Origin: Amycolatopsis sp. QT-25
Lineage (GTDB): Bacteria; Actinomycetota; Actinomycetes; Mycobacteriales; Pseudonocardiaceae
Assembly: GCF_029369745.1 (NCBI RefSeq)
Contig: NZ_CP120210.1
Coordinates: forward strand, 868,001 to 932,000
Length of the DNA: 64,000 nt
Direction of reading: 5' to 3'
Positions 11,030 to 61,618 of the stretch are shown one piece after another. Position 1 is the first letter of the stretch, and the number at the start of each line of letters is the position of its first letter. The translations under genes were made by a program, and so were the position numbers. The notes under the pieces are model-generated. The model was not told the origin of the DNA, ran no database searches, and was given only the letters and a program-made list of their open reading frames with translations.

Positions 11030-12672
<1,643 letters not shown>

Positions 12673-46681: not shown

Positions 46682-47854
46682 GTGACGAAGGTGTCTGACG
46701 GCCCGGGTCTTTACCAGCTTGCCGAGGAGCACGAAGAGCTGCGGGCCGCGGTCCGTGCCTTGGCGGAGAAGGAAATCGAGCCGTTCGCGGCCGAGGTCGA
46801 CGAGGACGAGCGTTACCCGATCGAGGCGTACAAAGCCCTGGTCAAGGCGGGTTTCAACGCCGTCCACATCGACGAGGCCTACGACGGGCAGGGTGCGGAC
46901 GCCATCGCCGCCTGCATCGTGATCGAAGAGGTCGCGCGTGTCGACGCGTCGGCGTCGCTGATCCCGGCGGTGAACAAGCTGGGCACCGTGCCGATCATCC
47001 TTTCGGCGTCGGAGGATCTCAAGAAGCTCGTGCTGCCCTCGATCGCCTCCGGTGAGGCGTCGGCGTCGTACGCGCTCTCGGAGCGCGAAGCCGGCTCGGA
47101 CACCGCGTCGATGCGCACCCGCGCGAAGCTCGACGGCGACCACTGGGTGCTCAACGGAACCAAGTGCTGGATCACCAACGCGGGTGAATCGTCCTGGTAC
47201 ACCGTGATGGCGGTGACCGACCCCAACGCCGAAAAGAAGGCCAACGGCATCTCCGCGTTCGTCGTGCACAAGGACGACCCCGGCTTCATCGTCGGCTCGA
47301 AGGAGCGGAAACTCGGCATCAAGGGCTCGCCGACCCGCGAGATCCATTTCGAGAACTGCACCATCCCGGCCGACCGCATCATCGGCGAGCCCGGCACCGG
47401 CCTGAAGACCGCGCTGCGCACCCTCGACCACACCCGCCCCACCATCGGCGCGCAGGCGCTGGGCATCGCGCAGGGCGCGCTCGACGCGGCCATCGCGTAC
47501 GTCAAGGAGCGCAAGCAGTTCGGCAAGTCGATCTCGGAGTTCCAGGGCGTCCAGTTCATGCTGGCCGACATGGGCATCAAGATCGAAGCCGCCCGGAACC
47601 TCGTCTACGCCTCCGCCGCGGCGACCGAACGCGGCGACAAGCGCGGCGGTTACCTGGCCGCGGCCGCGAAGGCGTACGCGTCGGACATCGCGATGTCGGT
47701 GACGACGGACGCCGTGCAGCTCTTCGGCGGCGCGGGTTACACGCGCGACTTCCCGGTGGAACGCATGATGCGCGACGCGAAGATCACCCAGATCTACGAA
47801 GGCACCAACCAGATCCAGCGCATGGTCATGGCACGCGCCCTGCTCAAGGGCTGA
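46682..47854 (+). CDS. fadE25: Acyl-CoA dehydrogenase (fadE25-like), host of the attachment site
   Basis: 390 residues from the GTG at 46682. FAD enzyme that makes the 2,3-double bond in acyl-CoA. Seen: YALSEREAGSDTASMRTRA, GTKCWITNAG, PTREIHFENC, ERKQFGKSISEFQGVQFMLADM, QLFGGAGYTRDFPVERMMRDAKI and the C-terminal QIYEGTNQIQRMVMARALL with the probable catalytic base Glu in YEGT. Position after purE matches Rv3274c fadE25. The last 24 codons and stop are the left copy of the 74-bp repeat flanking the integrated element, so the present 3' end came from the element. Confidence 0.95.
   Translation: MTKVSDGPGLYQLAEEHEELRAAVRALAEKEIEPFAAEVDEDERYPIEAYKALVKAGFNAVHIDEAYDGQGADAIAACIVIEEVARVDASASLIPAVNKLGTVPIILSASEDLKKLVLPSIASGEASASYALSEREAGSDTASMRTRAKLDGDHWVLNGTKCWITNAGESSWYTVMAVTDPNAEKKANGISAFVVHKDDPGFIVGSKERKLGIKGSPTREIHFENCTIPADRIIGEPGTGLKTALRTLDHTRPTIGAQALGIAQGALDAAIAYVKERKQFGKSISEFQGVQFMLADMGIKIEAARNLVYASAAATERGDKRGGYLAAAAKAYASDIAMSVTTDAVQLFGGAGYTRDFPVERMMRDAKITQIYEGTNQIQRMVMARALLKG
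47781..47854 (+). repeat. attL: 3' end of the acyl-CoA dehydrogenase gene
   Basis: Encodes the last 24 residues (from K-ITQIYEGTNQIQ) and the stop. Identical to 60502-60575 except at 47833 (A here, G there), the third base of an Ala codon. Confidence 0.93.
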
Positions 47855-47877
47855 TTTGATCTTGATCCGGTAGTTCG

Positions 47878-47909
47878 GGCGGCCCTGACTGCTCATGATC
47901 AGGCCGCCT
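47878..47909 (-). terminator. Hairpin at the 3' end of the integrase gene
   Basis: GGCGGCCCTGA (47879-47889) and TCAGGCCGCC (47899-47908) pair with one bulge, overlapping the integrase stop. No clear T-run follows on the minus strand, so termination is plausible rather than shown. Confidence 0.4.
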
Positions 47910-49149
47910 CCAGGCCGTCATGGGAGCCAGGCCGCCCGAACACCGCGTCGATGGCCTGCCGAGCCCGCTCGTGGCTCGACGGGACGAGGTGCGTGTACGT
48001 CCGCAGGGTGAATCCCGCATCGGAGTGGCCGAGGTACTCGGCGAGTTCCTTGATCGACACGGCGCGAGACAGCAGCGTCGAGGCGAAGAAGTGCCGCAGC
48101 GCGTGCATGCCGTCCGCTCGGCCACGGTAGGCGATCTCAGCCGCCCTGAACGCGCCCTGCCACACAACCTTGGTGAACAGGTCTCCGGTGTAGAGCCGCC
48201 CCTCTTCTCCCGTCATCAGGAGCCGGACCGTCACAGGTTCGCCGTCTGGCTTCCGCCACGGAAGCGTGACCGCGACGGGCGGGAACCGGTCCTCGTGGTC
48301 GTCGATCTCGGCGAGCATGGCGGGGGAGAGCGGCACAGTCCGCGACTTCCCGCCCTTGGGTGGCGCGAACATCATCACACCCTTGACGGTCTTGATCTGC
48401 CGTTGAATGTGGACGACCATCGCGTCTCGGTCGATATCGTCCGGGGAGTACCCGAGGATTTCCCCTTGCCGCAGGCCCAGCCCAGAGCCCAACGGGACGG
48501 CGATTCGGAACCGTTCGGCGAGCCCCTTCCGCACCTTGTGCACCCGTTCTTCCGGCCACACGACCACCGGCGGGCTTTCACCGACAGGTCGTCGAACCGT
48601 CTTGGCATGACAGGGGTTCTCCCGAATCAGCCTGTCGTCCACCGCTGAGTCCAGTACACCGGCCACGATGGTGAACAAGACAACCTGATAGTCCGTGGAC
48701 AGTCCCCGTTCGTCCATGTCGCCCACCCAGTCACGGATGGTGGACGGCTTGATCTGGCCGAACTTCAGATGCCCGAAGGTCGGGTAGATCTGGCTTTCCA
48801 AGCGGCTACGCAGGATCTCGCGGGTGGCCGGGTCGGGTGAGGTGGCCTTGAGCCAGTTCTCGCCCTGCTTACGGAAGACCTTCGATGACGCCCGCGGATC
48901 GATGTACTTGTCTTCGCGCTTGTCTGCCTCCACGCCGATGAGAAAGTTCTCGGCGCGCTTCTTTTGCTTGTCCGGGAACGACTTCGAGCGTTCTTCGTTG
49001 TCGGGGTCGAGGTATCGGACCTTGTACCGCATGCCGATGCCGTACAGCTCGGTCTTTTCGAGCACGGGCTTGCCCCGCCCGTTGAGGATGACCTTTCCGG
49101 TCTCCTCGTCACGGGCGGGGCGGTACCAGCGATCTTGAATGTGTCCCAT
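47899..49149 (-). CDS. int: Tyrosine-type site-specific integrase
   Basis: 416 residues. Integrates the element at the 3' end of the acyl-CoA dehydrogenase gene and excises it with Xis. N-terminal Arm-like and SAM-like DNA-binding parts (about 1-180), then the catalytic domain: Arg in LGSGLGLRQGEILGY, Lys-bearing hairpin near KTVKGVMMF, His-x-x-Arg in MHALRHFFASTLL, and the nucleophile Tyr in FTLRTYTHLV. Length and the early MGHIQDRWYRP are as in pSAM2-like integrases. Overlaps xis by one base. Confidence 0.93.
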   Translation of the reverse strand: MGHIQDRWYRPARDEETGKVILNGRGKPVLEKTELYGIGMRYKVRYLDPDNEERSKSFPDKQKKRAENFLIGVEADKREDKYIDPRASSKVFRKQGENWLKATSPDPATREILRSRLESQIYPTFGHLKFGQIKPSTIRDWVGDMDERGLSTDYQVVLFTIVAGVLDSAVDDRLIRENPCHAKTVRRPVGESPPVVVWPEERVHKVRKGLAERFRIAVPLGSGLGLRQGEILGYSPDDIDRDAMVVHIQRQIKTVKGVMMFAPPKGGKSRTVPLSPAMLAEIDDHEDRFPPVAVTLPWRKPDGEPVTVRLLMTGEEGRLYTGDLFTKVVWQGAFRAAEIAYRGRADGMHALRHFFASTLLSRAVSIKELAEYLGHSDAGFTLRTYTHLVPSSHERARQAIDAVFGRPGSHDGLEAA

Positions 49150-49340
49150 CAGGCTGCCGCCTCGTCTGTGCTCCAGGCACGGACCTTGGTCGGGTCATAT
49201 CGGAGGTGACGGCCGATCTTGCGGACTGGCGGGCCTTCACCGAGCCACTTCCACTGGTAAAGCGTCTTGACCGGTACGCCGAGGTAGGCCGAGACGTCTT
49301 CGACCGACCAGAGCCGGTCCACCTTGCTCACGTTGTCCAT
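49149..49340 (-). CDS. xis: Excisionase (MerR-like HTH)
   Basis: 63 residues. LWSVEDVSAYLGVPVKTLYQWKWLGEGPPVRKIGRHLRYDPTKVRAW (in pieces) is the winged-helix excisionase pattern. It directs excision together with the integrase. Its stop overlaps the integrase start (ATGA), the usual AICE arrangement, and it follows rep by 10 bases. Confidence 0.9.
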   Translation of the reverse strand: MDNVSKVDRLWSVEDVSAYLGVPVKTLYQWKWLGEGPPVRKIGRHLRYDPTKVRAWSTDEAAA

Positions 49341-49350
49341 GTCGTCCCCC

Positions 49351-50961
49351 TCAGGCTGCTAGTGGAGTTGCCGAAAGATCCTGTGCGGCTAGTAGCGCTC
49401 TGTCGTACTCGGCCTTCCATGTGATGCGTTCGGAGATCGCGTGCATCACCAGGTGGTCCCGAGGTGGCACGGACGGATCGCCGGAGTCGACCTTGCGCCA
49501 GACCAGCCGTGCCGGATCGGGTGCTGGCTTCTCGATCCCGACCGCCGCCAGAGCCTCCAGGACGAAGGCTTTGCGGTCCGCCTTGTGGTCGACGAGCGTC
49601 TTCCCGGACCATTTGCGTGACACCAGCACCCGCCGCCCCGGCAAGCCGAGCGTGGTCCGCCGATGAGCCCTTCCCTTGCAGTGCCCTGGGGTGACCTTTC
49701 CGTTGGCGCCCTTGGGGTTGATGCCGTAGATCAGCCACACGGCGCACCGAGGCGAGCAGGGTGTCACGGACAGTTCCGCGTGCAAGCGGTCGTGGTGATC
49801 CTTCTGCCGCGCGGTGTCGGCTTCGACGACCTCGCCCGTGGATTTGGTGAGGTACTTGGTCAGGTAGCCGATGTGCCGCCCGGCCTCTTCGGAGCCGCCG
49901 AGAACGCCCTTGGAATGCACCTGACGGCCGAAGGTGACCACGTGCGCCGGGTCTTCCACGGCTTCTATCGCGTCGTCCCAGTCGGTCAGAGGTGCGCGGG
50001 TGTCCGGGTCGACGAACACCCGGCGGTCGCCGTCCCACAGCGGCATCCGGTCGACGTAGACGACCTGGTCATGCTTGGGCCACCAGACCTGGTGATAGGT
50101 CGCTTCGGTGACTTGGCGGATGACGTCATGCGGCACCGATCCCCGAATCGCCGCGTGCAGGTGCGGTGCCGCCCGCCGTTGAGGTTCCACGGTCGCGAAG
50201 TACTGCGCGTCCCAGCCGACCACCCGCCGCAGGTTCTGCCACCACCTGTCCACCAGAGCGGAGAAGTGCACCGCGTCCCGAGCCGCCCGCCGATAGTCAT
50301 AGGACGCCGGATCAACCGGAGCGCCATCCGACCGAACCGGCCCGTAGGTGTCGCAGGTGAGCGTGACGAACATCGACGGCCGGAACCGCCCCGCGTACTC
50401 CCGGCCCACGGTGGTCTTGGCGACCTTCCGTCGAGGGAGGTTCGGCGCGTCCTGCCGCCTCTTGGTCGAGCGCTTCACCGCCTTCTTCGTGGGCAGGTCG
50501 ATCGAGGGGAGGCGGCCGCGCATCCCGAGTTGCCGAAGTTCGTCGTCGACGCTCTGGATCTCCTCCCGCAGCTCCTCGGCCTCCGCCTGATCTGGCTCTT
50601 GCCGGTAGGCGGCGACGAGGTCAGCCCGAAACGCCAGCAGCTCCGTTTGGGTCTCGGAGGGTGGCTCCGGAGTGAAGTCCGGTTCGATCTCCATGTGCCA
50701 GCCCTCGCGGCACTGGACCTGTCGTAGCGCCTTCGCTTTCCGGGCACAGGGCAGGCAGACCGATTCGACCGTTGAGCCACACGGGACGGGGACGTACCGA
50801 AGTTCTCCCGTGGCGGTATCCCCGACCTCCATCGTGAACGGCCGAACACAAACACCGTGCTTCTCAGCGGTCGCCTTCACCACGTCCGACGCCAGGGGTT
50901 CCCGCATCCGAGCGGCCCGAGTTTCGGCCGGCATAGTCACCGCGGATTCCTGGGTGCTCAT
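49351..50961 (-). CDS. repSA: Replication initiator, RepSA-type HUH protein
   Basis: 536 residues from the ATG at 50961. An N-terminal cysteine cluster (Cys61, Cys69, Cys72) may bind zinc. The metal-binding HUH motif is His267-Leu-His269 in RAAPHLHAAIRG, and the nicking Tyr is in GYLTKYLTKS (Tyr366 or Tyr370). Such proteins start rolling-circle replication of the excised AICE; the double-strand origin is often inside or next to the gene. It follows a small gene whose stop overlaps its start by one base. Confidence 0.88.
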   Translation of the reverse strand: MSTQESAVTMPAETRAARMREPLASDVVKATAEKHGVCVRPFTMEVGDTATGELRYVPVPCGSTVESVCLPCARKAKALRQVQCREGWHMEIEPDFTPEPPSETQTELLAFRADLVAAYRQEPDQAEAEELREEIQSVDDELRQLGMRGRLPSIDLPTKKAVKRSTKRRQDAPNLPRRKVAKTTVGREYAGRFRPSMFVTLTCDTYGPVRSDGAPVDPASYDYRRAARDAVHFSALVDRWWQNLRRVVGWDAQYFATVEPQRRAAPHLHAAIRGSVPHDVIRQVTEATYHQVWWPKHDQVVYVDRMPLWDGDRRVFVDPDTRAPLTDWDDAIEAVEDPAHVVTFGRQVHSKGVLGGSEEAGRHIGYLTKYLTKSTGEVVEADTARQKDHHDRLHAELSVTPCSPRCAVWLIYGINPKGANGKVTPGHCKGRAHRRTTLGLPGRRVLVSRKWSGKTLVDHKADRKAFVLEALAAVGIEKPAPDPARLVWRKVDSGDPSVPPRDHLVMHAISERITWKAEYDRALLAAQDLSATPLAA

Positions 50962-51347
50962 CAGGCGGCCACCTCCCCAGGCGTGTTCCACTGCCGCAGC
51001 ACGAACACCGGCATGTCCTGCCGCATCCCCGCAGGCAGATCGGGGAACGTTGCTTCGTCGAACCAGACGCCGCCGTAGACGACCACTGGGATGCCGCAGG
51101 GAGTCCGGCCGCTCAGTTCCAGGTGCACCGACCCGCCGCCCGCAGGACGCCACAGGGACGCCGTCACGTCGTCGAGCGAGGCAGCCCAGGTGAGGAGGCC
51201 ACGGGCGACGTCCTCCAGGCGGTCGGAGTCGAGTTGCACCGTGATCGGATCAGGACCCACCCCGACCCGAACCGACGCGGTCGGAGGCAACGCGAATGAG
51301 TCGAGGTGATCGCGGATCGCGTCGAGGAAGACCATCAGCCGGTTCAT
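50961..51347 (-). CDS. Hypothetical AICE protein
   Basis: 128 residues from the ATG at 51347. Cytoplasmic alpha/beta protein: MNRLMVFLDAIRDHLDSF, VRVGVGPDPITVQL, VARGLLTWAASLDDVTASLWRP and VVYGGVWFDEATFPDLPAG (in pieces). I do not recognise a domain. It lies between traB (four-base overlap with its end) and rep (one-base overlap), so all three are translationally coupled, pointing to a role in replication or transfer. Confidence 0.7.
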   Translation of the reverse strand: MNRLMVFLDAIRDHLDSFALPPTASVRVGVGPDPITVQLDSDRLEDVARGLLTWAASLDDVTASLWRPAGGGSVHLELSGRTPCGIPVVVYGGVWFDEATFPDLPAGMRQDMPVFVLRQWNTPGEVAA

Positions 51348-52904
51348 GCCGCCCTCCCCTCGGAGAGTCCAACCACGTGAGAGCCACAGTTGGTCACGTA
51401 GTTCTCCAGCGCCTTGATCTCCTCGTCGGCGACCCAACCGGCCCGGACGCGCAGGGGTTCACGGACGCCTTCGCCCCAGACGTAGCCGACACCGGCTTCG
51501 GAATCGCCGATCCGGTTCGCCCAGGCGCCACGTTCGTAAGCGCCGTCACCGAGGACCATCCCGACGTGGGTCTTCGAGGTCACCCGCAGACAGACACGGC
51601 GCGGGAACAACTCCCGAACAGGAACGGTGTCCTTCGTGGGTTCCTGCACATAGCCGCGCACCGTGATCCCCAAGGCCCGGCCCTGCGTGGTGAGGAGCGC
51701 GACCTTTTCCACGATCGCGTCACGGGTCTTGCGGTCGGTGTACTTGGTCAGCGCGCCGATCTCGTCGAACTCCAGAACCTCTAGCGGATGATCGACGCTG
51801 ATCGGGATCATCCGCACGCGTCCGGCGAACTCGTGCTTGCGGGCTTCCATCTCCTCAAGCAGGCCGTCGAGAAGTTCGAGCGCCTGCTTACCGGTCACCG
51901 CGTACCGGGCGAAGATCCTGCGTCCGTAGGCGAGTTCCATCCCCTTGGGATCGATGCCGGACACCCGGACCACACCGGACCGGATCGCGGGTGCGGCCGA
52001 CACCAGCGGGCACCACATGACCGAGTTCTTGCCCGATCCGGTCGCGCCAGCGGTCAGGCAGTGCGCACCCGAGCCGACCAGCGGGACCCGCCAGTCCGAG
52101 CCGTACTCCGTGGTCCCGGACCACACATGCCGCAGATCCACGCCGAGCCCATCGGGTGACACCAGGTCAGGAATCGGCAGGGAGGTCACCGCGGATTTGA
52201 GTAGGTCACGGCGCTGGAAGTCGATGGAGACCACGTTGGGCTCCAGTTCCCGCACCTGGCACCGCTTGACCTTGCGCGCCACCGCCAGCGCCCGCGCGGC
52301 CTCGTCGAAGTCCTCGGGCTTCTGCCCCGGAACGAGCTGCACTCGCACCTCATCCCACGACGGCCCGGACCGGACCTTGAGCACCTTCGGCACCTGTACG
52401 GCCCGTGATGCCGAGGCGGCCTTGCGGGACAGCAAACGTCGACGGCCGACCAGGTTTACCGTTACTTCTACCGGTAGCGTCTCGTCCCGGATGCTCAGCC
52501 CGCAGGCGTGCAGCCAGGCCGGGAGCTTGCGCGCGTAGACCGCCCAGCGCATCCACCACGAGCGCAGGAGCCGGCCGCAGTGCTGGTCATAGGACACCAC
52601 GTCGATCAGCCGCCATGACGCCAGCACGGTGACGACCGAGGCTGTCACGATCGCCAGGGACAGCCACCCGAGGTACTGCCACCACGCCATGAACGCCACC
52701 ACGGTAAGACTGGTTCGCCAGCGCGTGATGACCTGCTTTGCCAGCCACAGCAACGATTTGAACAGCCACGAGGGTGATGAACACCAGTGCGGCCGCCGCC
52801 AGGACTTCCAGGATCGTGGCGAGCGCGCGACCGAGCTTGTGCAGCAGCCACACCACCACACCCAGCACCCCGCCGCAGACGAGAAGAACACCGATCCCGT
52901 TCAT
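51344..52904 (-). CDS. traB: TraB-type FtsK/SpoIIIE DNA translocase, apparent frameshift near 52757
   Basis: Moves double-stranded DNA between hyphae in conjugation. ATPase part intact in one frame: Walker A in TAGATGSGKNSV, Walker B in VLEFDEIGAL, and a C-terminal wing. N-terminal membrane segments are split between frames: MNGIGVLLVCGGVLGVVVW to ALVFITL from the ATG at 52904, then WLFKSLLWLAKQ onward in the ATPase frame. Removing one base in CTCGTGGCTG (about 52757) joins them to about 519 residues, the family length. The 52904 start overlaps the upstream gene's stop (ATGA), supporting it. Either decay, programmed shift or a sequence error; the internal frame alone might start lower down. 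Confidence 0.8.
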
Positions 52905-53062
52905 CGGCGACCACCGCCGGTCAGATCCAGCGGCAGCATTCCCCGGCAGGGAGCACACTCGGTCTCGCCGGGCAGGAGCTTCGCGAACCGCTTGCAGACC
53001 GTGCAGCGCGTTCGGGTGACCCCGTCTAGCGGACGGTTGTTGCCATCGTTTAGCGTTGTCAT
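52901..53062 (-). CDS. Small zinc-ribbon protein
   Basis: 53 residues from the ATG at 53062 to a TGA overlapping the traB start. Reads MTTLNDGNNRPLDG, then CTVCKRFAKLLPGETECAPC (two CxxC pairs 12 residues apart), then RGMLPLDLTGGGRR. The two pairs could hold one zinc ion. It is too short for most gene finders. The ATGA junction with traB makes translation of both linked, so it is probably a transfer-region protein. Confidence 0.72.
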   Translation of the reverse strand: MTTLNDGNNRPLDGVTRTRCTVCKRFAKLLPGETECAPCRGMLPLDLTGGGRR

Positions 53063-53152
53063 TGTTCACTTCTAGAGGTTGTGGACAGCGCAGGAGCGGC
53101 AAGGTTGGTAGCCGGATTCCGCTTCTGCGCCTTACGGGACAAGAAAAGCGTT

Positions 53153-53183
53153 TGAGGACGTGTTTGTACGCCGCACGTCCTCA
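53153..53183. terminator. Bidirectional terminator-like hairpin in the transfer region
   Basis: Perfect 10-bp arms TGAGGACGTG and CACGTCCTCA around an 11-nt loop. On the minus strand TTTTCTT follows 6 nt later; on the plus strand TTTTT follows about 6 nt later. It separates the 53213-54000 genes from the traB group. Confidence 0.6.
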
Positions 53184-53212
53184 CGTGCGTTTTTCGCTCT
53201 GTCATTCAGTTT

Positions 53213-53467
53213 TCAGCTGGCTTGCGACTTCTCCTTCTGGATCTGCGCGGCCACCTCCCTGGCCTTCCGCTCCTCGTAGCCCACCCAGTACTTGAGTTCG
53301 TGGTGGTGCCAGCGGTCCACATCGGACGCCGCCTGATACGCGCGGGCGTTGGCCTGATGGAACTTCAGCCAGGTCTCCAGATTCGCCTCCCGCTTCGGCC
53401 TGCGAGCCGAGACGAGCGCGTGCGCCTCCTGGAGGGTCTGCGGCTCATTCCGGCCGGGCGTCGTCAT
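53213..53467 (-). CDS. AMED_5909-like small protein
   Basis: 84 residues. RRPKREANLETWLKFHQANARAYQAASDVDRWHHHELKYWVGYEERKA (in pieces) is a helical, His- and Trp-rich protein that resembles, from memory, the small family NCBI names after Amycolatopsis mediterranei AMED_5909. Function unknown; seen near phage- or plasmid-derived genes. It overlaps the start of its own upstream neighbour's end by a few bases and is followed by a terminator-like hairpin. Confidence 0.68.
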   Translation of the reverse strand: MTTPGRNEPQTLQEAHALVSARRPKREANLETWLKFHQANARAYQAASDVDRWHHHELKYWVGYEERKAREVAAQIQKEKSQAS

Positions 53468-53693
53468 TGCGCACCGCCTTGTGTTTGTCGAGGAATACGG
53501 CCAGTTCGTCCGCGCTGTCGCGGATTTGGCGAAGGAGCCGGATGAATTCCGGCCACGCGGCCGGGTCGGACGGCGGCAGGATCGCCAGGCTGTCCGGGTC
53601 GAGGTAGATCACCAGAGCCGGGTTCGCCGAACCATTGCCCTGCATTCCCGCGACCGCCTGCGGCCCCGGCTTCCACATCGCGTTGAACGCCAC
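53445..53693 (-). CDS. Hypothetical AICE protein (possibly the C-terminal part of the upstream gene)
   Basis: 82 residues from a GTG at 53693 (VAFNAMWKPGPQAVAGMQG), with GGAAGGG about 8 nt before. ALVIYLDPDSLAIL, WPEFIRLLRQIRDSADELAVFLDKHK look like real protein. It lies in a different frame within the long tail of the 53464-54000 frame, whose own C-terminal 80 residues there are Gly/Arg/Pro filler. Either this is a separate gene starting inside the other, or one gene is split by a frameshift near 53700. Confidence 0.6.
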   Translation of the reverse strand: MAFNAMWKPGPQAVAGMQGNGSANPALVIYLDPDSLAILPPSDPAAWPEFIRLLRQIRDSADELAVFLDKHKAVRNDDARPE

Positions 53694-54000
53694 GGCCTTG
53701 CCCTTCCTCGCTGTAAGCGCGCATCTCCCACGACCGCGCGTTCTCCTCGAAACCTTCCGCCGCAGCCGTCACGGCCGCAAGAACCCACCACGGCAACTGG
53801 ACGTGAGCGGCCAGGTCCCGCCAGGACGACGCCACCGCGACCGAGGCGACGGCCAGGTCATGAGCCGCCAAAGCATCAGCGCCGGATGCCGCTCTGGCCG
53901 TCAGCGCGCTGTAGTGGCGATAGGCCATCTCCCACGCCTGGACCAGGTACGGAGGAACCACGGCCACACGGTGACTCCCCGGCACCCCGCCCGGCATCAC
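53464..54000 (-). CDS. Hypothetical AICE protein (first about 98 residues credible)
   Basis: Open for 178 residues from the ATG at 54000. The first part is protein-like: YLVQAWEMAYRHYSALTARAASGADALAAHDLAVASVAVASSWRDLA and LPWWVLAAVTAAAEGFEENARSWEMRAYSEEG (in pieces), mostly helical. Beyond about residue 103 the composition turns to Gly, Arg and Pro, while the good frame continues in 53445-53693. Its start overlaps the 53997-54458 gene by four bases. Confidence 0.55.
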   Translation of the reverse strand: MMPGGVPGSHRVAVVPPYLVQAWEMAYRHYSALTARAASGADALAAHDLAVASVAVASSWRDLAAHVQLPWWVLAAVTAAAEGFEENARSWEMRAYSEEGQGRGVQRDVEAGAAGGRGNAGQWFGEPGSGDLPRPGQPGDPAAVRPGRVAGIHPAPSPNPRQRGRTGRIPRQTQGGAQ

Positions 54001-54458
54001 GCAGCCTTGGGCGTTGACTCGGCAGCGCCCGAGGTCCGCGACGACTTCGACGCCCCGCCCGAAGCCGCAGCCTTGAAGCCGGTCGCGCGGAACATGTAGG
54101 ACTGGTACTTGAACTCGCCTTGACCAGCCACCTTGGGCTCAGCCGTCAGGCCTTCCAGTTCGATCGGCCGCATGCCCGGCAGCACTTCCGACGTGGTCGG
54201 CACCGGCTGAACATCGGCCAGCAACGTGATCTCGAACGACGCCCGCTTCGCCTTGACCTCGTCCGGGTCGGTCACCGTCACCTTCCACTGGCGCTTGCCC
54301 GTCACCTCGTCGACCCGCTGCCGAGCCGGACGACCCGACGACCGGTCCTCACGCGACTGGTACTCATTGTCCGGCGACACCTCACCGACCATCACCAAGC
54401 CCTGACCGAAAGCCTCGTCGAAATCGATGGGGAACCGGAAACCCTTGTAGATAGCCAT
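53997..54458 (-). CDS. Conserved AICE transfer-region protein
   Basis: 153 residues. MAIYKGFRFPIDFDEAFGQGLVMVGEVSPDNEYQSREDR opens a beta-rich domain; QRVDEVTGKRQWKVTVTDPDEVKAKRASFEITLLADVQPVP continues it, and the C-terminal 25 residues are a low-complexity Ala/Ser/Lys tail. I recall similar proteins beside traB genes in actinomycete elements, without a known role. Overlaps the next gene by four bases. Confidence 0.72.
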   Translation of the reverse strand: MAIYKGFRFPIDFDEAFGQGLVMVGEVSPDNEYQSREDRSSGRPARQRVDEVTGKRQWKVTVTDPDEVKAKRASFEITLLADVQPVPTTSEVLPGMRPIELEGLTAEPKVAGQGEFKYQSYMFRATGFKAAASGGASKSSRTSGAAESTPKAA

Positions 54459-54481
54459 TTGCTGCTCCTAGATACGTGTGA

Positions 54482-54778
54482 TCAGTCGTTCTTGCGCGTG
54501 ACGGCGTCGTCGGCAGCGTCGGACCACTGGTCATGGAAGGAAGAGGAATGCGAGCGCGTGCGGTGCTGGGTTTCGCACCACTCGCTGAACTCGCTGGCAG
54601 CGGCCGCGAGACTCTGCGCGAACCGTGCGGTGTCCATCAGGCCGCCGATACGGGCGGGCACCTGGACGATGAAGGAGGTCTCTTCACTTCCGGCGACGAG
54701 CTGACGAACGCCAGGAGAGGGTGAAACCACCGCCGCGCCGTAGCCGACGAGGGGCTGAATCACCACGTGAATGCCCAT
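54482..54778 (-). CDS. Hypothetical AICE protein
   Basis: 98 residues from the ATG at 54778 (MGIHVVIQPLVGYGAAVVSP). A beta-rich first half (VAGSEETSFIVQVPARIGG) and a helical second half (ARFAQSLAAAASEFSEWCETQ) with a Ser/His-rich segment. No recognised domain. First gene of the minus-strand transfer block, 23 bases upstream of 53997-54458 in transcription order. Confidence 0.62.
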   Translation of the reverse strand: MGIHVVIQPLVGYGAAVVSPSPGVRQLVAGSEETSFIVQVPARIGGLMDTARFAQSLAAAASEFSEWCETQHRTRSHSSSFHDQWSDAADDAVTRKND

Positions 54779-54858
54779 GTGTGCTCTCCCGATGTCTCGG
54801 TCTCGGCGAGCCCGGTCGGGCGCGCTGGACACAGGAGACACCCAGTGAGCAGCCTCAC

Positions 54859-54877
54859 CCCGGACAAACTGTCCGGG
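54859..54877. promoter_or_regulatory. Inverted repeat CCCGGACA-AAC-TGTCCGGG
   Basis: Perfect 8-bp arms with a 3-nt centre between the flavoprotein gene end (54884) and the start of the transfer block (54778). It may be a terminator for the regulator/flavoprotein pair or an operator in front of the transfer genes. Confidence 0.5.
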
Positions 54878-54883
54878 TAGGGA

Positions 54884-55444
54884 CTAGCGAGGGAGAGGAA
54901 CGGCCTCGTTCACCACGGAAAGCACCGCCGACCAGGGCAACTCTCGGCCCGGAGCGCTCCGCGGTTCATGCAGCGGCCACACGTCGTCCCCGTACACGAG
55001 ACGCACACCAGCACGCCGCAACGCGTCGATATGGGTTCCCCAGGACGGGTGACGAGCGTGCGCGGCGTTCACGCGCGGGAAAACGACGACCGGCAGGTTG
55101 AGCGTGCCGATGGCCTCGTTGACCTGCGTGAGGGCTTGGTTGTCGGCGATGCCCATCGCGAGCTTAGCGACCATGTTCGCCGAGGCGGGCGCGACCAGGT
55201 AGCAGTCCGGGGCCGGATGGGGGCTGGTTTCGGCCGGCGTGCGGGGCTCGACCCGGACCGGGAATCCGGTGGCCTCCTCGATCTCGGCGCGGCCGCCGTT
55301 CTCGTCCAGCCAGCGTCCCGCCGTCGGGGTCAAGGTCACCGCGACCGTCCAGCCGTCCTCTTGGAGAGGACGGATCACGCGCGGAAGAAGGTCCTCAACA
55401 CCACCAGCACCCGAGCCCACCAGGCCCAGAACACGCGACGCCAC
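54884..55444 (-). CDS. Flavoprotein of the HFCD/CoaC-like family
   Basis: 186 residues. Rossmann-like flavin-binding fold: LGLVGSGAGGVEDLL at the start, LVAPASANMVAKLAMGIADNQ (the PASANT-like FMN motif) and VVVFPRVNAAHARHPSWGTHI. The family includes phosphopantothenoylcysteine decarboxylase and peptide cysteine decarboxylases; a free-standing copy like this has no fixed role. It begins 5 bases after the XRE-TPR regulator stop, so the two form an operon, possibly a redox-sensing switch for the element. Confidence 0.82.
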   Translation of the reverse strand: MASRVLGLVGSGAGGVEDLLPRVIRPLQEDGWTVAVTLTPTAGRWLDENGGRAEIEEATGFPVRVEPRTPAETSPHPAPDCYLVAPASANMVAKLAMGIADNQALTQVNEAIGTLNLPVVVFPRVNAAHARHPSWGTHIDALRRAGVRLVYGDDVWPLHEPRSAPGRELPWSAVLSVVNEAVPLPR

Positions 55445-55449
55445 CCGAC

Positions 55450-56688
55450 CTACCTCACCGCGCCGCAGCGCTCAGCCAACGCCAACAAAGGCGAGAACTT
55501 CTTACCAGCCGTCGCCGGGGCACGGCGATACATCGACCGCACGACCTCCCGCACCGCCGTACTGTGCCAGACGATCCCCGGCGCCTTCTGCTCAGCCGTC
55601 AGCAGCGCAGACAATGCCTCGTCATCCTTCGCGACCAGGCTCAAGGCCCGTGCGAAGTCGATCAGATGGGTGACCTGCCGCTCTACCGGCAGGTGGTCGA
55701 CGCTGATTCGCGGAGCCGACTCGATCACCTGCGAAATGTCGCCCAGATCCAGCGCCGCCGACAGGCGGTGCAGCTCGACGTTGGCCGGGCCGAAGCCCGT
55801 TTGCCAGTGATTCGCATCCACGCCGAGCTGATCAGCCGCGCGCCCCGCGTGAGACAGCAGCTCGTTCGCCGTCGACCGGTCCTGTTGCCGAGCAGCGGCG
55901 ACAGCCGTCCGCAGGTAGAGCATCCCGTAGAGGCTCAGCGCTGACGGGTCACCAGCGCGCATCCTCGGGACCAGCCACTTCGCGGCGACGTCGCCCAGCT
56001 CAAGCGCGTCGTCGAACCGGCCGACGGCCAGGAGCGCGTGTGTACCGGAGCGGGCAGCGGAGGCCAGGACCAGGGGATCATCGGCTTCGTCGGCTGCCTG
56101 CATGGCGCGTTCCGCCGCGATCCACGCGAGGTCGGCTTCACCGATCTTGCTCAGCGTCGTTGCGGCCAGGTGGTGGACGCGCGCGGACACCGCTGCACAG
56201 GCCCGTCGGTAGGCAGCGTCATCGGCTGAGGCGGACTCCATGCCCTGGCTGGTCTTGATCAGGCCCGGCAGCGCGGCGACGACGCGGCCGAGGTCGCCCT
56301 TCTGATAGCTGGACCAGGCACCTTCCACCAGTTGAGCTACCGGGGCCGGGTCGATGTATTCGGGCGACATGGCAGAGGAGAACAGGGTGCGGGACAGCCG
56401 CCGGGGAGCCATGAGCGCATCTCGGATGGCCGGGACGTCGTCGTTCTTGTCCTCGTCCTCCATCAGCACCGGTTCGCCGAGGAGGTCTCCCAGCGTCACC
56501 CGCAGGCCCCGCGCGACGTCGGCCAGCACGTCCAAGCGCCGGATCTCGCGTTCACCGCGCTCGATCTTGCTCAGCCAGTCCTCGGTACGGCCCACCAGGT
56601 CAGCAAGAACCGCCTGCGACAGACCACGCCGCCGCCGGTAGAAGGCAATACGCTCCCCGATGCTGAGCTGATCACCCGCACCACGCAT
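55450..56688 (-). CDS. XRE-family regulator with TPR-like region
   Basis: 412 residues. HTH at about 9-65: IGERIAFYRRRRGLSQAVLADLVGRTEDWLSKIERGER (in pieces). The rest (about 100-400) is all-helical with Ala-rich repeats (WIAAERAMQAADEADDPL, LALSLVAKDDEAL-like), as in TPR-containing quorum or ligand-sensing XRE proteins. It lies divergent from the helicase cargo and probably controls both that promoter and its own operon with the flavoprotein. It occupies the place that Pra takes in pSAM2. Confidence 0.87.
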   Translation of the reverse strand: MRGAGDQLSIGERIAFYRRRRGLSQAVLADLVGRTEDWLSKIERGEREIRRLDVLADVARGLRVTLGDLLGEPVLMEDEDKNDDVPAIRDALMAPRRLSRTLFSSAMSPEYIDPAPVAQLVEGAWSSYQKGDLGRVVAALPGLIKTSQGMESASADDAAYRRACAAVSARVHHLAATTLSKIGEADLAWIAAERAMQAADEADDPLVLASAARSGTHALLAVGRFDDALELGDVAAKWLVPRMRAGDPSALSLYGMLYLRTAVAAARQQDRSTANELLSHAGRAADQLGVDANHWQTGFGPANVELHRLSAALDLGDISQVIESAPRISVDHLPVERQVTHLIDFARALSLVAKDDEALSALLTAEQKAPGIVWHSTAVREVVRSMYRRAPATAGKKFSPLLALAERCGAVR

Positions 56689-56883
56689 ACCCCCAGGTTA
56701 ACAGGGATATCTGCTGCCACACTTTGGTTAGCTGGGTCTGGGCTCGACCTACGGGTGCGTGGCGCTTGGCCACAGCGAACTCGTGTGGGGCCCATCCTGA
56801 CATGGACACGACCGGCTGTTTTCGCATGACGGACCACAAGATGCGCCCCGGCTCCGATTCACCCAACAGCTTTACGGACAGTC

Positions 56884-56914
56884 TTGAGGCAACTAGGGGA
56901 TTTTGGTCTAAACT
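56884..56914 (+). promoter_or_regulatory. Possible promoter of the helicase/DUF2290-like pair
   Basis: TTGAGG (56884-56889) and TAAACT (56909-56914) with 19 nt between, 40 nt ahead of the GTG start. The spacing is long, so support is weak. Confidence 0.3.
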
Positions 56915-56953
56915 CTTACTGGTCCACTCTGTCCAGCTGTCGGAGAGTTACTG

Positions 56954-59119
56954 GTGACCACTCAACCTACAATAGTTCGCGGTACGAATGATAAACCAGC
57001 GGCTAGTGACAGCTTGGCGGGCATCTTCGAGAGCTCGCAGAGTCTCGACGGCCAACTCTTTATAGGTTATCCAATTATCGGTACCGCTGACGGTAAGTTG
57101 CCCATCGATGCCGTTTATGTGTCACCTACGCGCGGTGTGGTGGTTTTTGACCTTGTTGAGGGGAACAATCTATCCGGCTTTGAGAGTCGGCAAGATGATG
57201 CTGCGACAAAGTTGGAGTCGCGCTTGATGCAGCATCGTGATCTCGTGAATCGGAGAAAACTCAAGGTTATCGTCACGCCGGTGACCTTTGCGCCTGCGGT
57301 CTCTTCAAGAGGTATCGAGGAAAGCAATTCCGAAGAGTATCGGATAGCTAATGTGGACAGCTTGGAAGCCCTTCTCGCTGAAATTCCAGGCGGGCATCTT
57401 GACTCAATCACTTACGCTCAAACTCTCTCCGCGTTGCAAAGTATTTCCACTATCCGGAAGTCGCGCGCAAGTCGAGTTGTGTCTGACGAGAAGTCGCGAG
57501 GTGCGCGACTGAAGCGACTTGAGGAATCAATTGCAACGCTTGACAATCAGCAGAGTAAAGCTGTAATTGAAACAGTTAAAGGCGTTCAGCGGATCCGCGG
57601 TCTCGCGGGCTCAGGAAAAACAATCGTACTTGCGCTCAAGGCCGCCTATCTGCATGCACAGCATCCTGATTGGAAAATCGCGGTCACGTTCCAAACTCGC
57701 TCGTTAAGGTCTCAATTTAGTAGATTGATTAACAATTTTTCAATTGAGCAGGCTGGCGAAGAGCCTGATTGGGACAGACTAAAAATTATCCACGCGTGGG
57801 GGGCGCCGGGAGGCGGTCGTCGCGAGGGTATCTACCATGAGTTCTGCGTCAGTAATGAGACGACATACTATGACTTTATGAGCGCTAACTCAAAGTATGG
57901 ACGCGATCAAGCTTTCCAGGGCGCTTGCCGAGAGGCGCTCGCGGAGGCTACTGAACCAAATGTAACCTACGATGCAATTCTTGTAGATGAAGCGCAAGAC
58001 TTCCCTCCTGAATTCCTGAATCTGTGCTACAAAATCCTCACTGCTCAAAAGCGGCTTGTCTATGCGTATGATGAGTTGCAGAACCTTTCTAGTGCGGGGC
58101 TCCCGTCGGCCGCTGACATATTTGGCGTGGATTCCACTGGGACGCCTCGAGTGTCGTTCGATAACTCTTCTCAGGATGTCATACTTGAGAAGTGCTACAG
58201 GAACTCGCGCCCTGTGCTGACTAGCGCGCATTCTCTTGGATTTGGGATTTATCGGCAACCGCCCAACTCTGATTCGACGGGACTCGTCCAGATCTTTGAT
58301 CAACCTGAGTTGTGGAATGACATCGGGTATCGGGTTAAGTCAGGGCAGACGGAGCCGGGAGAGCATGTCGTGTTGACGCGGCCAGCGGATACCAGTCCCG
58401 GCTTCCTCGAAGATCACTCGCCGGTAGACGACCTAATTCACTTCCAATCGTTCACCAATCAGGGAGAGCAGGCGCAGTGGGTCGCTGGCGAGATCGAGAA
58501 AAACCTCGAATCTGATGAGCTGCGGGCGGACGACATTGTCATTATCAATCCAAACCCCCGCACGGCACGTTCTAACCTCGGTCATGTGCGAAAGGCGCTG
58601 TTTCAGCGGGGAATCGCAACTCATCTCGCTGGGGTGGACGTAGGTGCAGATACCTTCTTTCGATCAGATGCTGAGAGCATTACCTGCACTGGAATCTTCC
58701 GTGCGAAGGGTAATGAAGCTGGAATGGTTTATATTATTGACGCCGATGAGTGTTATGAAAGCCCTGGCACTATGGCTCGCACGAGAAATATGCTTTTCAC
58801 CGCGATAACGCGTAGCAAAGCGTGGGTCCGCGTTTTGGGTATTGGATCGCCTATGGATGCATTGAGGGCCGAGTACGACGAGGTAAAAGCCGCGAATTTT
58901 GAGCTTCGATTTAGGTACCCGACTGATCGGGAGCGGGCGCAGCTACAGGTTGTCCACAGGGATATGTCTGAGGAAGAACTTAATGCCGTTCGTCGACAGC
59001 GTACCGCATTGCCTCAGCTGGTAGAGGATCTCGAAACTGGACGCGTTTACCTCGAAGACCTTGACGACCGTGTTGTCAACAGGCTTCAGAGCATTTTGGA
59101 TAGACATGGCAAGCAGTAG
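56954..59119 (+). CDS. Superfamily 1 (UvrD-like) helicase with degenerate nuclease-like N-terminus
   Basis: 721 residues from a GTG at 56954, with CGGAGAG ahead. Residues about 25-135 resemble a NERD/restriction-endonuclease fold (GKLPIDAVYVSPTRGVVVFDLVEG), but the E-x-K catalytic pair is missing. Helicase motifs: Walker A GLAGSGKT (216-223), Walker B ILVDEAQDF (342-350), YAYDELQN, CYRNSRP (414-420), a motif-V-like FRAKGNEAGMVYIID and motif-VI-like MLFTAITRSK. AT-rich codon use unlike the rest of the window. Its end overlaps the DUF2290-like gene by 14 bases. Host defence is the most likely role, by inference. Confidence 0.82.
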   Translation: MTTQPTIVRGTNDKPAASDSLAGIFESSQSLDGQLFIGYPIIGTADGKLPIDAVYVSPTRGVVVFDLVEGNNLSGFESRQDDAATKLESRLMQHRDLVNRRKLKVIVTPVTFAPAVSSRGIEESNSEEYRIANVDSLEALLAEIPGGHLDSITYAQTLSALQSISTIRKSRASRVVSDEKSRGARLKRLEESIATLDNQQSKAVIETVKGVQRIRGLAGSGKTIVLALKAAYLHAQHPDWKIAVTFQTRSLRSQFSRLINNFSIEQAGEEPDWDRLKIIHAWGAPGGGRREGIYHEFCVSNETTYYDFMSANSKYGRDQAFQGACREALAEATEPNVTYDAILVDEAQDFPPEFLNLCYKILTAQKRLVYAYDELQNLSSAGLPSAADIFGVDSTGTPRVSFDNSSQDVILEKCYRNSRPVLTSAHSLGFGIYRQPPNSDSTGLVQIFDQPELWNDIGYRVKSGQTEPGEHVVLTRPADTSPGFLEDHSPVDDLIHFQSFTNQGEQAQWVAGEIEKNLESDELRADDIVIINPNPRTARSNLGHVRKALFQRGIATHLAGVDVGADTFFRSDAESITCTGIFRAKGNEAGMVYIIDADECYESPGTMARTRNMLFTAITRSKAWVRVLGIGSPMDALRAEYDEVKAANFELRFRYPTDRERAQLQVVHRDMSEEELNAVRRQRTALPQLVEDLETGRVYLEDLDDRVVNRLQSILDRHGKQ

Positions 59120-59789
59120 TCCATCGGCCAAATCTCTCATTAAAGATATTAAAGCAATTTCGGCATTCTTGATCGAAAAGAGCCTTGCGGATGATGCTAA
59201 TTTTCCGACGGTTTTAGATGGGCCGGAAAAGAGGGAATATGTCGAGTATGTGCGAGGGGCCGACTATGCTGGCATGCTAAGGGACGTGCCATATCGCAAG
59301 GTCTACGAGGCTCAGGCGCTCGGTCGTCAGTATAATCTTCGGATGCTTGATGGGGCTTTGCTGCAGATGTCTTATGAGCTTAAGGGGGGCGAACTTGAGA
59401 AATCTCGGCACGCGTACCTTCCATCTCCTAGTCTGCTTCATTTTCATGAAGCAGCTGATTTGTACTACGAAGATGACCTATACTTGGACGTTGTTGCACA
59501 TAGAGAGGTTCTAGTTCCTATTCGCTTTGACTACGACTCGCGGGAAGGTGTTTCAAGCAGCCTTCGGCACCCTGTTTCTCATCTTACGTTGGGCCAGTTT
59601 AAGGAATGCAGAATTGCGGCAACGGGTCCGATGACGCCATACTTCTTTACCGAGTTTATTCTTCGTTCTTTCTATGATCGCCCTGGTCAAGTTGTCTCAG
59701 ACTTGCTCCCGGTTAGTGATGCTAAATGGTCGGGCTGTTCAACGCGAGAAGAAGTTGACCGAGTTCATATCGGTATACCGGTAACGTAG
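59106..59789 (+). CDS. DUF2290-like protein, partner of the helicase
   Basis: 227 residues from the ATG at 59106. Marks: YVRGADYAGMLRDVPYRKVYEAQALGRQYNLRMLDGALLQMSYE, ARHAYLPSP-like HAYLPSPSLLHF, DVVAHREVLVPIRFDYDSREG, LRHPVSHLTLGQFKECRIAATGPMTPYFFTEFILRSFY (all in pieces). The H-P-x-x-HL-x-x-G and P-x-TP-x-x-F-x-x-FIL-x-x-FY pattern recalls the DUF2290 family; I cannot check this. No catalytic motif is evident. It shares the low GC and the reading overlap of the helicase, so the two form one functional unit. Confidence 0.72.
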   Translation: MASSSPSAKSLIKDIKAISAFLIEKSLADDANFPTVLDGPEKREYVEYVRGADYAGMLRDVPYRKVYEAQALGRQYNLRMLDGALLQMSYELKGGELEKSRHAYLPSPSLLHFHEAADLYYEDDLYLDVVAHREVLVPIRFDYDSREGVSSSLRHPVSHLTLGQFKECRIAATGPMTPYFFTEFILRSFYDRPGQVVSDLLPVSDAKWSGCSTREEVDRVHIGIPVT

Positions 59790-59823
59790 AAAGCGTTGAC
59801 GAACTTGGCTCTAGGGGATCAAG

Positions 59824-59842
59824 GCGCCGCCGTCGGCGGCGC
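59824..59842 (+). terminator. GC hairpin downstream of the cargo operon
   Basis: GCGCCGCC-GTC-GGCGGCGC, perfect 8-bp arms, 34 nt after the stop of the DUF2290-like gene. No T-run follows, as is common for actinomycete terminators. Confidence 0.5.
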
Positions 59843-60064
59843 GCACGTCACCACTCGTACGGCGGGCTCCGCCCAAGCGACACGGACGGCCTGCCGCTCC
59901 GCTCCGGCCGCCGGTCGCGGCGAGCCCGCCGACGAGCAGCACCGCGCAGCGCGCCGCCGACGACGGAGATCCAAGGAGTCACTTCGCCTCAAACTCCCGG
60001 CTCACCCAGCCGACGCGCAGTGGTCACCAGGGGGTCCCTCGCTTCTCAGCGTCTAACACCGGCC

Positions 60065-60104
60065 CGATCGCGTCAAGGCGGGAAAGCGTGCCTTGACGCG
60101 ATCG
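60065..60104. repeat. 15-bp inverted repeat near the right end of the element
   Basis: CGATCGCGTCAAGGC (60065-60079) and its exact reverse complement (60090-60104) with a 10-nt loop GGGAAAGCGT. No gene adjoins it, so a role in recombination or replication is possible. Confidence 0.75.
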
Positions 60105-60501
60105 ACCCGGCGCTAGAGATGGCGGGGGCGAGGGAAGCGGGGAGAATAGGCACGGGCAGGTCGGGTACCGGTTAACCAGTCGAAGGCTAGCCAGCGGTGC
60201 GCCATACTTCGGGCGGTCCCCTTCAACAGGCGCACGGGGCGCCCGGGGCGAAAGCCGAACCGGCGAGGGTAAAGCAGCGACATGGGGGATCTCGCATGCG
60301 TGGTGCGCGATCGGCACCTGTGAGTCCCTGCCGGACCTGTGATCGGCGGCAGTCATGCCGAAGCCCCGACGTGAGCCAGGCCGTCTACAGGCCGTCAGAC
60401 GTCAGGTAGGGCCAAGATCCACCGAGAACTGTCGAGAGACGTTTGAGCAGCTCAGAGGCCATTTTCAGGCAAGATCGCCAGGAAGCCAGAAACAGGCCGA
60501 G

Positions 60502-60575
60502 AGATCACCCAGATCTACGAAGGCACCAACCAGATCCAGCGCATGGTCATGGCGCGCGCCCTGCTCAAGGGCTGA
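60502..60575 (+). repeat. attR: second copy of the acyl-CoA dehydrogenase 3' end
   Basis: Would encode the same final 24 residues and stop, but lacks the rest of the gene. It is presumably the original chromosomal 3' end, now displaced, and is followed after 13 bp by a hairpin repeat like those that follow other host genes. Confidence 0.93.
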
Positions 60576-60588
60576 CGTCTCAAGTACA

Positions 60589-60633
60589 TGAAGGCCCCCT
60601 TCCTTGCGCCTAACGCAAGGAAGGGGGCCTTCA
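60589..60633. repeat. Long hairpin repeat, copy 4
   Basis: Arms of 20 bp (60589-60608 and 60614-60633) around CCTAA. Outer ACATGTACT pairing is lost because the right flank has changed to CACGT. Before integration it would have sat right after the acyl-CoA dehydrogenase stop. Confidence 0.88.
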
Positions 60634-60701
60634 CACGTTTTCATAAGTGGGGGACGAGACGTGGATCAGTTGGCCAGACTGTCGTCGGCGCCGTGGTTGC
60701 T

Positions 60702-61349
60702 TTAATTTGGCGGTAAGTGTCCAGGAGCTTCAGGAAGGGGCAAGTGCTTGGCGCGGCGCCAATAGTAGTACCGCTCTCTTACGAGATCCTCGGCTTCGTC
60801 CCAAGAATCGGCTCGGAGAAGTGGTGCCGGAGCCATTCTTCTGTTTGTCGAATTCGTGTAAGCGATGACGGGTTTGCCGGTCTCTTGAAGGTTTCGAATA
60901 TTGGTCTCGTTGTCTTCGATGTAAATATCCGCATCGACCAGAGCCTTATCTCGCATGAAGCAGAGGTCCCAGTAAGGGATCGCATGTGCGTCTAGCCACT
61001 TGACCGTTTGAACCACGGCGTTCTTGTGAAAACTCCGGATGAACAACCTGTGCGTGATGATACGAATACGTACGCCTTCGGTTCCCAGTCGGCGTATTGC
61101 CTGAGCTGCGCCACTGATCGGCTGCATGGTAAGAAACAGATCGCGTTGAGTAACGGCGAATCGATGAATTCGTTCGTATTCGCCCGGCAGGAGGTGCCAT
61201 TCTGGCAGGCCGTAGCTCACGTCCTCGGTCAGGTCGTGCTTGCAAGTCCCGCGCCAGTCCGCGACGATCTCGCGAAACTTCCCATAAAAATCAGCACAGA
61301 CGCCGTCGAGGTCGACACCGAAGACGAACTCGTCAGTTATATCCGTCAT
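60702..61349 (-). CDS. HAD-family 5'(3')-deoxyribonucleotidase-like protein
   Basis: 215 residues from the ATG at 61349 (MTDITDEFVFGVDLDGVCADF). HAD motif I GVDLDGVCADF with the nucleophile and acid Asp; motif II-like RIITHR; motif III Lys region RDKALVDADIYIEDNETN with the acidic motif IV. It resembles NT5C-type nucleotidases, which dephosphorylate nucleoside monophosphates. GC content is clearly lower than the flanking host genes, as in the element's cargo, yet the gene lies outside attR, so it may be an earlier acquisition. Confidence 0.8.
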   Translation of the reverse strand: MTDITDEFVFGVDLDGVCADFYGKFREIVADWRGTCKHDLTEDVSYGLPEWHLLPGEYERIHRFAVTQRDLFLTMQPISGAAQAIRRLGTEGVRIRIITHRLFIRSFHKNAVVQTVKWLDAHAIPYWDLCFMRDKALVDADIYIEDNETNIRNLQETGKPVIAYTNSTNRRMAPAPLLRADSWDEAEDLVRERYYYWRRAKHLPLPEAPGHLPPN

Positions 61350-61618
61350 TCTGCTTCCCTTTTTTCTGTAGTAGAGATCCTGGTTGCCTCCCGGTTTCGG
61401 ATCTCCGTTGAATGCTTCGTAGTCGACCGATGGGTGTCGATGGTTACTGGAATGACCAATCTGATACCGAGGTGTCACCGTCCTTTCGTTTCAAACTGGC
61501 GTGTGGACTCGGTTACGCGGGAGTCTTACTTGTGCTCCCGGTCAGGTTTGGGTGTCGAATCGTGGAGCCGGATAGTGGTGCGTCCCTCGGTGAGATGCTT
61601 CACGGAAGTACGGCGATC

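Follow-up and report, generated by a model that had tools for sequence, protein, structure and literature searches.

How does a gene whose 3' end is occupied by an integrative element keep a coding end, and from whose DNA is that end made? The question is raised by a locus in the window analysed here, a 64,000-nucleotide stretch of the genome of Amycolatopsis sp. QT-25 (a single 8.01-Mb contig), in which a 74-bp direct repeat flanks genes for an integrase, an Xis-like protein, a replication initiator and a transfer protein. With a probability of roughly 0.9, we regard this locus as an actinomycete integrative and conjugative element (AICE) integrated at the 3' end of an acyl-CoA dehydrogenase (ACD) gene, whose attachment site attP would carry a working coding tail, so that the 3' end of the host gene would have been swapped and displaced. 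The features on which this reading rests are as follows (coordinates are those of the window).

46691..47854, plus strand: acd, the host acyl-CoA dehydrogenase gene and target, 387 aa (Pfam Acyl-CoA_dh N, M and 1)
47781..47854, plus strand: attL, left copy of the 74-bp repeat and 3' end of the working gene (Glu codon at 47798-47800)
47899..49149, minus strand: tyrosine integrase, 416 aa (PF00589, E 1.6e-12)
47900..47919, plus strand: left arm-type site CAGGCCGCCTCCAGGCCGTC, two 9-mers with an 11-bp period, putative integrase arm site
49149..49340, minus strand: Xis-like HTH_17 protein, 63 aa (PF12728, E 1.4e-9)
49351..51153, minus strand: RepSA replication initiator of the pSAM2 type (PF20199, E 1.9e-103)
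51344..52891, minus strand: FtsK/SpoIIIE-type transfer protein, Tra (PF01580, E 2.6e-9)
60377..60396, plus strand: right arm-type site CAGGCCGTCTACAGGCCGTC, 142 bp upstream of the right-copy Glu codon
60502..60575, plus strand: attR, right copy of the repeat, read as the displaced host 3' end (Glu codon at 60519-60521)
60589..60633, plus strand: host terminator-like hairpin with a 20-bp perfect stem (-42.5 kcal/mol, z -10.2)

The two copies of the repeat were 73/74 identical with a spacing of 12,721, and the runner-up direct repeat across the 16.5-kb region reached only 36 nt at 75% identity. The left copy forms the in-frame terminus of the ACD, for which the best solved chain was 3pfd (628 bits), and the right copy is an isolated 3' end with no gene body upstream. 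ARAGORN found no tRNA gene in the whole window, and the target is not the tRNA 3' end usual for AICEs. The element was shown to possess a site-specific integrase of the tyrosine type, a replication protein (one of the RepSA, RepAM or Prim-Pol kinds of AICEs, here RepSA), an FtsK/SpoIIIE transfer protein, and flanking att repeats together with an empty site in relatives. Judged by its gene content and its ends, it is an AICE at a non-tRNA site, the 3' end of an ACD gene. The initial annotation, made from the letters alone, had proposed precisely such an element; its repeat coordinates proved exact, the genes in between were borne out by domain match, and the non-tRNA site by the ARAGORN result and the empty sites of relatives. 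The HUH rep and traB that it named were recovered as RepSA and an FtsK/SpoIIIE-type Tra, and the RepSA protein contains an HLH motif, presumably of the HUH type. In addition, R227, H349, R352, H375 and Y385 of the integrase, its putative catalytic set, were invariant in A1, an alignment of 21 sequences.

The comparison with relatives that the initial annotation had called for bore on the origin of the two ends. Sixty genomes were searched, the window's own among them; an ACD match was obtained in 60/60, and the loci of 19 relatives were fetched, 12 of which held acd orthologs of 97-98% identity. Past the ACD stop, 14 of these 19 loci lacked the element left end, and the element or a left-end scar was present in the other five (L006, L007, L014, L016 and L020). 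DNA past the right copy in the window was matched downstream of 8 of the 14 empty sites; downstream of the other six, no match to that flank was found at E 1e-6. The best match, in the empty relative L004, amounted to 98% over 56 nt, started at the third base past the stop, and included the terminator-like hairpin, several empty relatives, L004 among them, having a similar hairpin past their ACD stop. Since the flank past the right copy matches the DNA downstream of empty sites, the right copy corresponds to the original host end, and, as far as these alignments and folds tell, the host gene's own terminator is shifted 12.7 kb from its gene. No replacement terminator was seen after the left copy of the window, where folding was no better than that of shuffles (z -0.2).

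The same flank test was applied to six Amycolatopsis elements at acd genes and eight at acdC genes (a paralog ~34% identical to acd) against 14 empty sites per class. The right-copy flank matched the DNA downstream of an empty site in 4/6 acd-class and 7/8 acdC-class elements (11/14 together). The initial annotation had called the left copy the real end of the gene, which holds for its function as the in-frame working end and must be reversed as to its origin, the right copy being the displaced host end by this test. Meanwhile, in the acdC class, all ten genomes read with an integrase there (10/10) carried the same sequence type after the left stop, starting TTGTG or TTGTA; G024, G075 and G069 showed this type of end without such an integrase and were read as scars, and 14 other acdC genomes had different ends after the stop. 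In the one example folded, L057, this sequence gave a strong hairpin (-52.6 kcal/mol, z -3.8), and the acdC-class element thus seems to bring a terminator together with the tail. As a separate observation, L060 (~12035-12124) and L065 (~11838-11927) had an element-like terminator where native DNA would be expected past the right copy, which suggests the coming and going of a previous element or two insertions in succession.

To characterize the attachment block across elements, the Glu codon was used as the anchor for an alignment of 33 left/right pairs, some of them from truncated elements; the repeat pairs of L054, L055 and L058, missed by the seed search, were recovered by translated motif. 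Left/right identity began sharply 17 nt upstream of the Glu codon in nearly all pairs and extended to about the stop codon in most. Over the 23 codons compared, the pairs differed at 197 nucleotides and at only 10 amino acids, a pattern that marks both copies as having evolved as coding sequence. The Glu of the IYEGT motif is the catalytic residue in acyl-CoA dehydrogenases. It was encoded in both copies of 33/33 pairs, in line with the earlier claim that the element carries this codon, and the codon was free of mismatch throughout a 31-pair set and in 32/33 of the full set (L055 differs in the third base). Within a class there is little variation at this third base, so that the constancy of the codon is weak evidence on the crossover.

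Furthermore, a paired 9-mer, CAGGCCGTC nn CAGGCCGTC, with an 11-bp period (≤3 mismatches) was located near the left end of 30/31 elements and near the right end of 30/31, with one copy only in all element interiors together. The right pair started at -142 relative to the Glu codon in 24 of the 31, at -141 or -143 in five and at -130 in one, and was absent in one. For the left pair, the distance was in most elements characteristic of the ACD class (about 102, 168, 180 or 77). From this placement, the paired 9-mers are probably the integrase arm sites.

Mapping of the crossover was tried in three ways, namely by left/right mismatch per column, by third positions and by host-likeness. The results point to a crossover left of about +6 in acd-class elements and between +17 and +24 in acdC-class elements, and because the two disagree, the strand exchange is given here as a window of -17 to +24 nt around the Glu codon. 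Host and element DNA would both fit this window as the source of the working gene's Glu codon. The origin of the tail beyond it was clearer in Amycolatopsis rubida (G087, L056), where the acdB gene, of another ACD class, terminates in the acd-class tail, QIQKVVMARALLKG. At a distance of 11.2 kb, the right copy ends in QIQRLVMARQLLKG, acdB's own tail, and is followed by the terminator type seen past acdB in G023 and G025. Among eight other Amycolatopsis acdB genes read, seven had the MARQLLK ending; the exception, G001, had MARALLKG, an acd-type ending, followed by an element left-end scar. Read from these termini, it was an element that gave the acdB of A. rubida its acd tail, the strands having been exchanged to the left of codon +7 (counted after the Glu). 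By the example of this related element, the left copy in the window presumably owes at least its final portion to the element.

How widely integrases of this type adjoin ACD genes, as the initial annotation had asked, was answered by searches at several levels. In a genus sample of 80 genomes (the window's own included), any integrase match was found in 79, and an integrase of ≥76% identity over ≥291 residues in 18, the window's genome among them, with similar fragments in four more (G092, G078, G071 and G001); most of the close genus integrases adjoin ACD genes, of differing classes. An integrase match at 1e-60 was obtained in 101/297 genomes of a family sample, and a scan of named-species genomes gave 215 integrase relatives, the best 80 of which were kept. 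From 149 loci, 145 integrases were long enough (4 dropped), and removal of 26 exact duplicates left 119 distinct sequences for a tree. This tree contained a 42-row group (SH-like approximate likelihood ratio test, SH-aLRT, 92) holding every confirmed ACD neighbour, with none among the 77 sequences outside it. Within the group, 39/42 integrases lay ≤1.5 kb from the 3' end of a convergent ACD gene, 34 of these within 200 bp; the remaining three were L161, with an ACD gene 2 kb off, and L082 (region L107) and L086 (region L111), with an isolated far-end ACD tail. An ACD match outside the group, L215, was dropped, the EGT motif being absent from its locus.

ACD linkage accordingly required one change on the tree, counting the three indirect cases as linked, and the ACD class changed at least six times inside the group (seven before L215 was dropped). 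Five classes were used: acd (the window type), acdB (67-69% identical to acd), acdC, acdD and acdE (33-35% each for the last two); acdC orthologs were tallied in at least 26/80 genus genomes. The group occurred in ten named genera, namely Amycolatopsis, Prauserella, Actinophytocola, Nocardia, Lentzea, Crossiella, Actinokineospora, Saccharothrix, Pseudonocardia and Actinomycetospora, and a second repeat copy was within reach at 15 of 26 named loci examined (flanks ≤10 kb). A phylum-wide sample of 396 genomes, 11 with a match including the window's own, yielded no further ACD-adjacent integrase, and no integrase found in the searches of plasmids and phages reached 60% identity. In Pseudonocardia dioxanivorans CB1190 (L110), integrase and Xis-like genes lay between both ACD tail copies, and no relative of the window Rep or Tra was found there among the matches listed; by its gene content, this locus would be a recombination module with different cargo.

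The mechanism that we propose is as follows. The attP would hold a working copy of the ACD coding tail, and integration, by strand exchange probably within the block coding for ITQIYEGTNQIQ, would exchange the 3' end of the host gene for the element version with the reading frame kept, the displaced host tail and its terminator ending up on the far side of the element. The element would be excised as a 12,721-bp circle and spread by conjugation, and the enzyme with the element-supplied tail is expected to be active. Within the integrase group, the same recombination may have been re-aimed several times at ACD paralogs with the common active-site block. A broader proposal, which we consider evenly poised between right and wrong, is that the group reads the conserved active-site codons of the ACD superfamily rather than any single gene, is able to move between paralogs because these share that block, and carries the C-terminal tail (in acdC, the terminator too), giving chimeric ACD enzymes across Pseudonocardiaceae and Nocardia.

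Several explanations compete with an AICE that replaces the tail of its host gene. A bare gene end as one of the two copies is also what a plain partial duplication of the ACD gene end, with unrelated AICE genes in between, would leave. Duplication does not, however, account for 33 left/right pairs of which nearly all share the same left boundary and the same arm geometry, and it is ruled out as the origin of the repeat by the relatives' empty sites at the same position and the host flank past the right copy, so that its chance is negligible. It could also be argued that the left copy is wholly host DNA, with the crossover at or after the stop codon, and that the element adds no coding sequence that matters. 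The acdC left copies, whose diversity up to about +57 is much like that of native genes, speak for this; the A. rubida acdB, which bears another paralog's tail from codon +7 after the Glu, speaks against it, as do the acd-class left copies, which were at least as uniform as right copies and native genes at most codons from 0 to +51 (not at +21, +24 and +33). We accordingly hold a host-only left copy to be distinctly improbable. Somewhat less improbable, though still unlikely, is an immobile, domesticated island with fixed ends: truncated sites or disrupted integrases do occur at L066, L068, L069, L070, L026 and L036, but int, xis, rep and tra of the window are open frames with intact domains, and the near relative L052, from Amycolatopsis oliviviridis, has repeats of 74/74 identity.

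Tail replacement by a mobile AICE thus remains the preferred reading, and the following points weigh against it. The whole case, that for the circle, for transfer and for recombination included, is one of sequence comparison. The Xis-like protein scored 19.8 bits against TIGR01764 'excise', under the NCBIfam cut-off of 28.8. The host-flank test was negative in 3/14 elements (L063, L066 and L060), and the left-copy flank, which matched an empty site in 0/14, adds no extra proof, largely by construction, because the empty sites were chosen for lacking the element left end. The crossover mapping conflicts between the acd and acdC classes. The acdB genes of G010, G012 and G071 show element traces and nevertheless keep the MARQLLK tail; therefore, the presence of an element does not always alter the tail. 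Finally, the integrase tree is a quick one with a midpoint root and a group support of 92.

The remaining genes of the element, and the DNA beside it, were as follows.

53213..55444, minus strand: small element genes, several with homologs in the same order in related elements
54884-55444, minus strand: Flavoprotein-domain protein, among the small element genes (PF02441)
55450..56688, minus strand: HTH_31 regulator with a TPR-like part
56954..59119, plus strand: cargo UvrD-like helicase (PADLOC 'Helicase' PDLC03002, 1010.8 bits)
59061..59789, plus strand: cargo DUF2290 protein (PADLOC PDLC02999, E 3.5e-67; PF10053, E 2e-32)

The helicase and the DUF2290 protein (56954-59789), both strong PADLOC-DB matches, make a candidate anti-phage defence system aboard the element; no match to the helicase was among those listed in 40 other element regions. 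Directly outside attR, ~950 bp (60634-61580) stand where the empty relative L004 has ~46 nt. A 5'-nucleotidase (NT5C) is encoded in this segment, on the minus strand, and the segment is a candidate second small insertion or older remnant adjoining the site.

Integrases outside the ACD group were ~33-53% identical, and part of them abut the 3' ends of other conserved enzymes or factors. Pfam named 3/10 neighbouring frames scanned (HlyIII, a pyridine nucleotide-disulphide oxidoreductase that is LpdA-like, and an aldehyde dehydrogenase), and GlnA, NusG and InfA tails were recognized by eye or pattern. At 54 named non-ACD loci, 14 fitted a tail pattern and 40 fitted none, with no tRNA gene within 500 bp at any of the 54; the 40 patternless loci may target other genes or intergenic sites. 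Targets at these six kinds of 3' end tend to follow tree subgroups, L196 excepted (wider-kin loci: L039, L042, L043, L044, L045, L047, L048, L149, L150, L152, L184, L186, L189, L190, L191, L192, L195, L196, L197, L200, L207, L216, L221 and L225). A second integrase of the window's own genome (G000:C1:1879143-1880354, L153), 50% identical and adjoining an apparent LpdA-like 3' end, probably belongs to another element of this wider group.

As for plasmids, the integrase of the Micromonospora rosaria plasmid NC_006910, presumably pMR2, was 25% identical to that of the window over 84% of the query. With regard to the pSLS integrase subfamily, no Streptomyces laurentii record was among the plasmid matches listed (the best 40 of 129; 3/3 in a second search). 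With the pSAM2-like RepSA AICEs, as described in the accessible part of the source, the window element shares int, xis, repSA and tra modules, a tyrosine integrase and direct repeats (PMC3218068). According to the same text, the vast majority of tyrosine-integrase AICEs reside in tRNA genes; as exceptions to tRNA targeting it names the integrase subfamily of pSLS and certain AICEs with serine integrases (Ghinet 2011, PMC3218068). In the accessible portion of a Streptomyces survey of integrative elements of several kinds, sites comprised 36 tRNA, 14 protein-coding and 1 intergenic (PMC9513070). The initial annotation had held that nearly all AICEs use tRNA genes; on these partly available accounts, insertion outside tRNA genes is less rare than was implied (PMC9513070, PMC3218068). 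AICE03 in rlmN likewise lies within a protein-coding gene, but its repeat is 11 nt, and the portion of the survey available to us describes no enzyme-tail replacement or paralog hopping (PMC9513070). An ACD gene is also targeted by the Mycobacterium abscessus prophage prophiT49-3 in fadE MAB_1851, which differs, in the available part of the report, in its serine integrase and in its insertion at about position 280 of 1140, probably inactivating the gene (PMC9934374). No published account of ACD-tail AICEs, of a single integrase group distributed among ACD paralogs, or of tails exchanged between paralogs was found in a search largely outside subscription journals and supplementary tables.

The elements described here would offer a repeated worked case of integrase target change, in which conserved protein-coding active sites common to paralogs take the role usually played by conserved tRNA loops, and of tail exchange between paralogous enzymes via a conjugative element. 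The attP would be under protein-level selection, as the ratio of 197 nucleotide to 10 amino acid differences suggests, because it must act as coding sequence in each new host. The integration sites might also be usable for vectors in Amycolatopsis and relatives.

The closest likeness is that to prophage e14 in icd of Escherichia coli, which, in the accessible text, enters the 3' part of a metabolic enzyme gene, supplies its last codons (163 bp) and leaves the host end as a far-side remnant (PMC6379469). Of the corresponding traits, the displaced host end was found in the window by the flank test, and an element tail serving as the working end was seen in A. rubida. Phage 21 in icd is, we assume, a case of the same kind of integration as e14. 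By this analogy the mechanism resembles that of e14 and icd; whereas e14 is a phage at one gene, a conjugative-element family here occupies five ACD classes and has apparently given one paralog another's tail, a family pattern that lifts the case above the ordinary.

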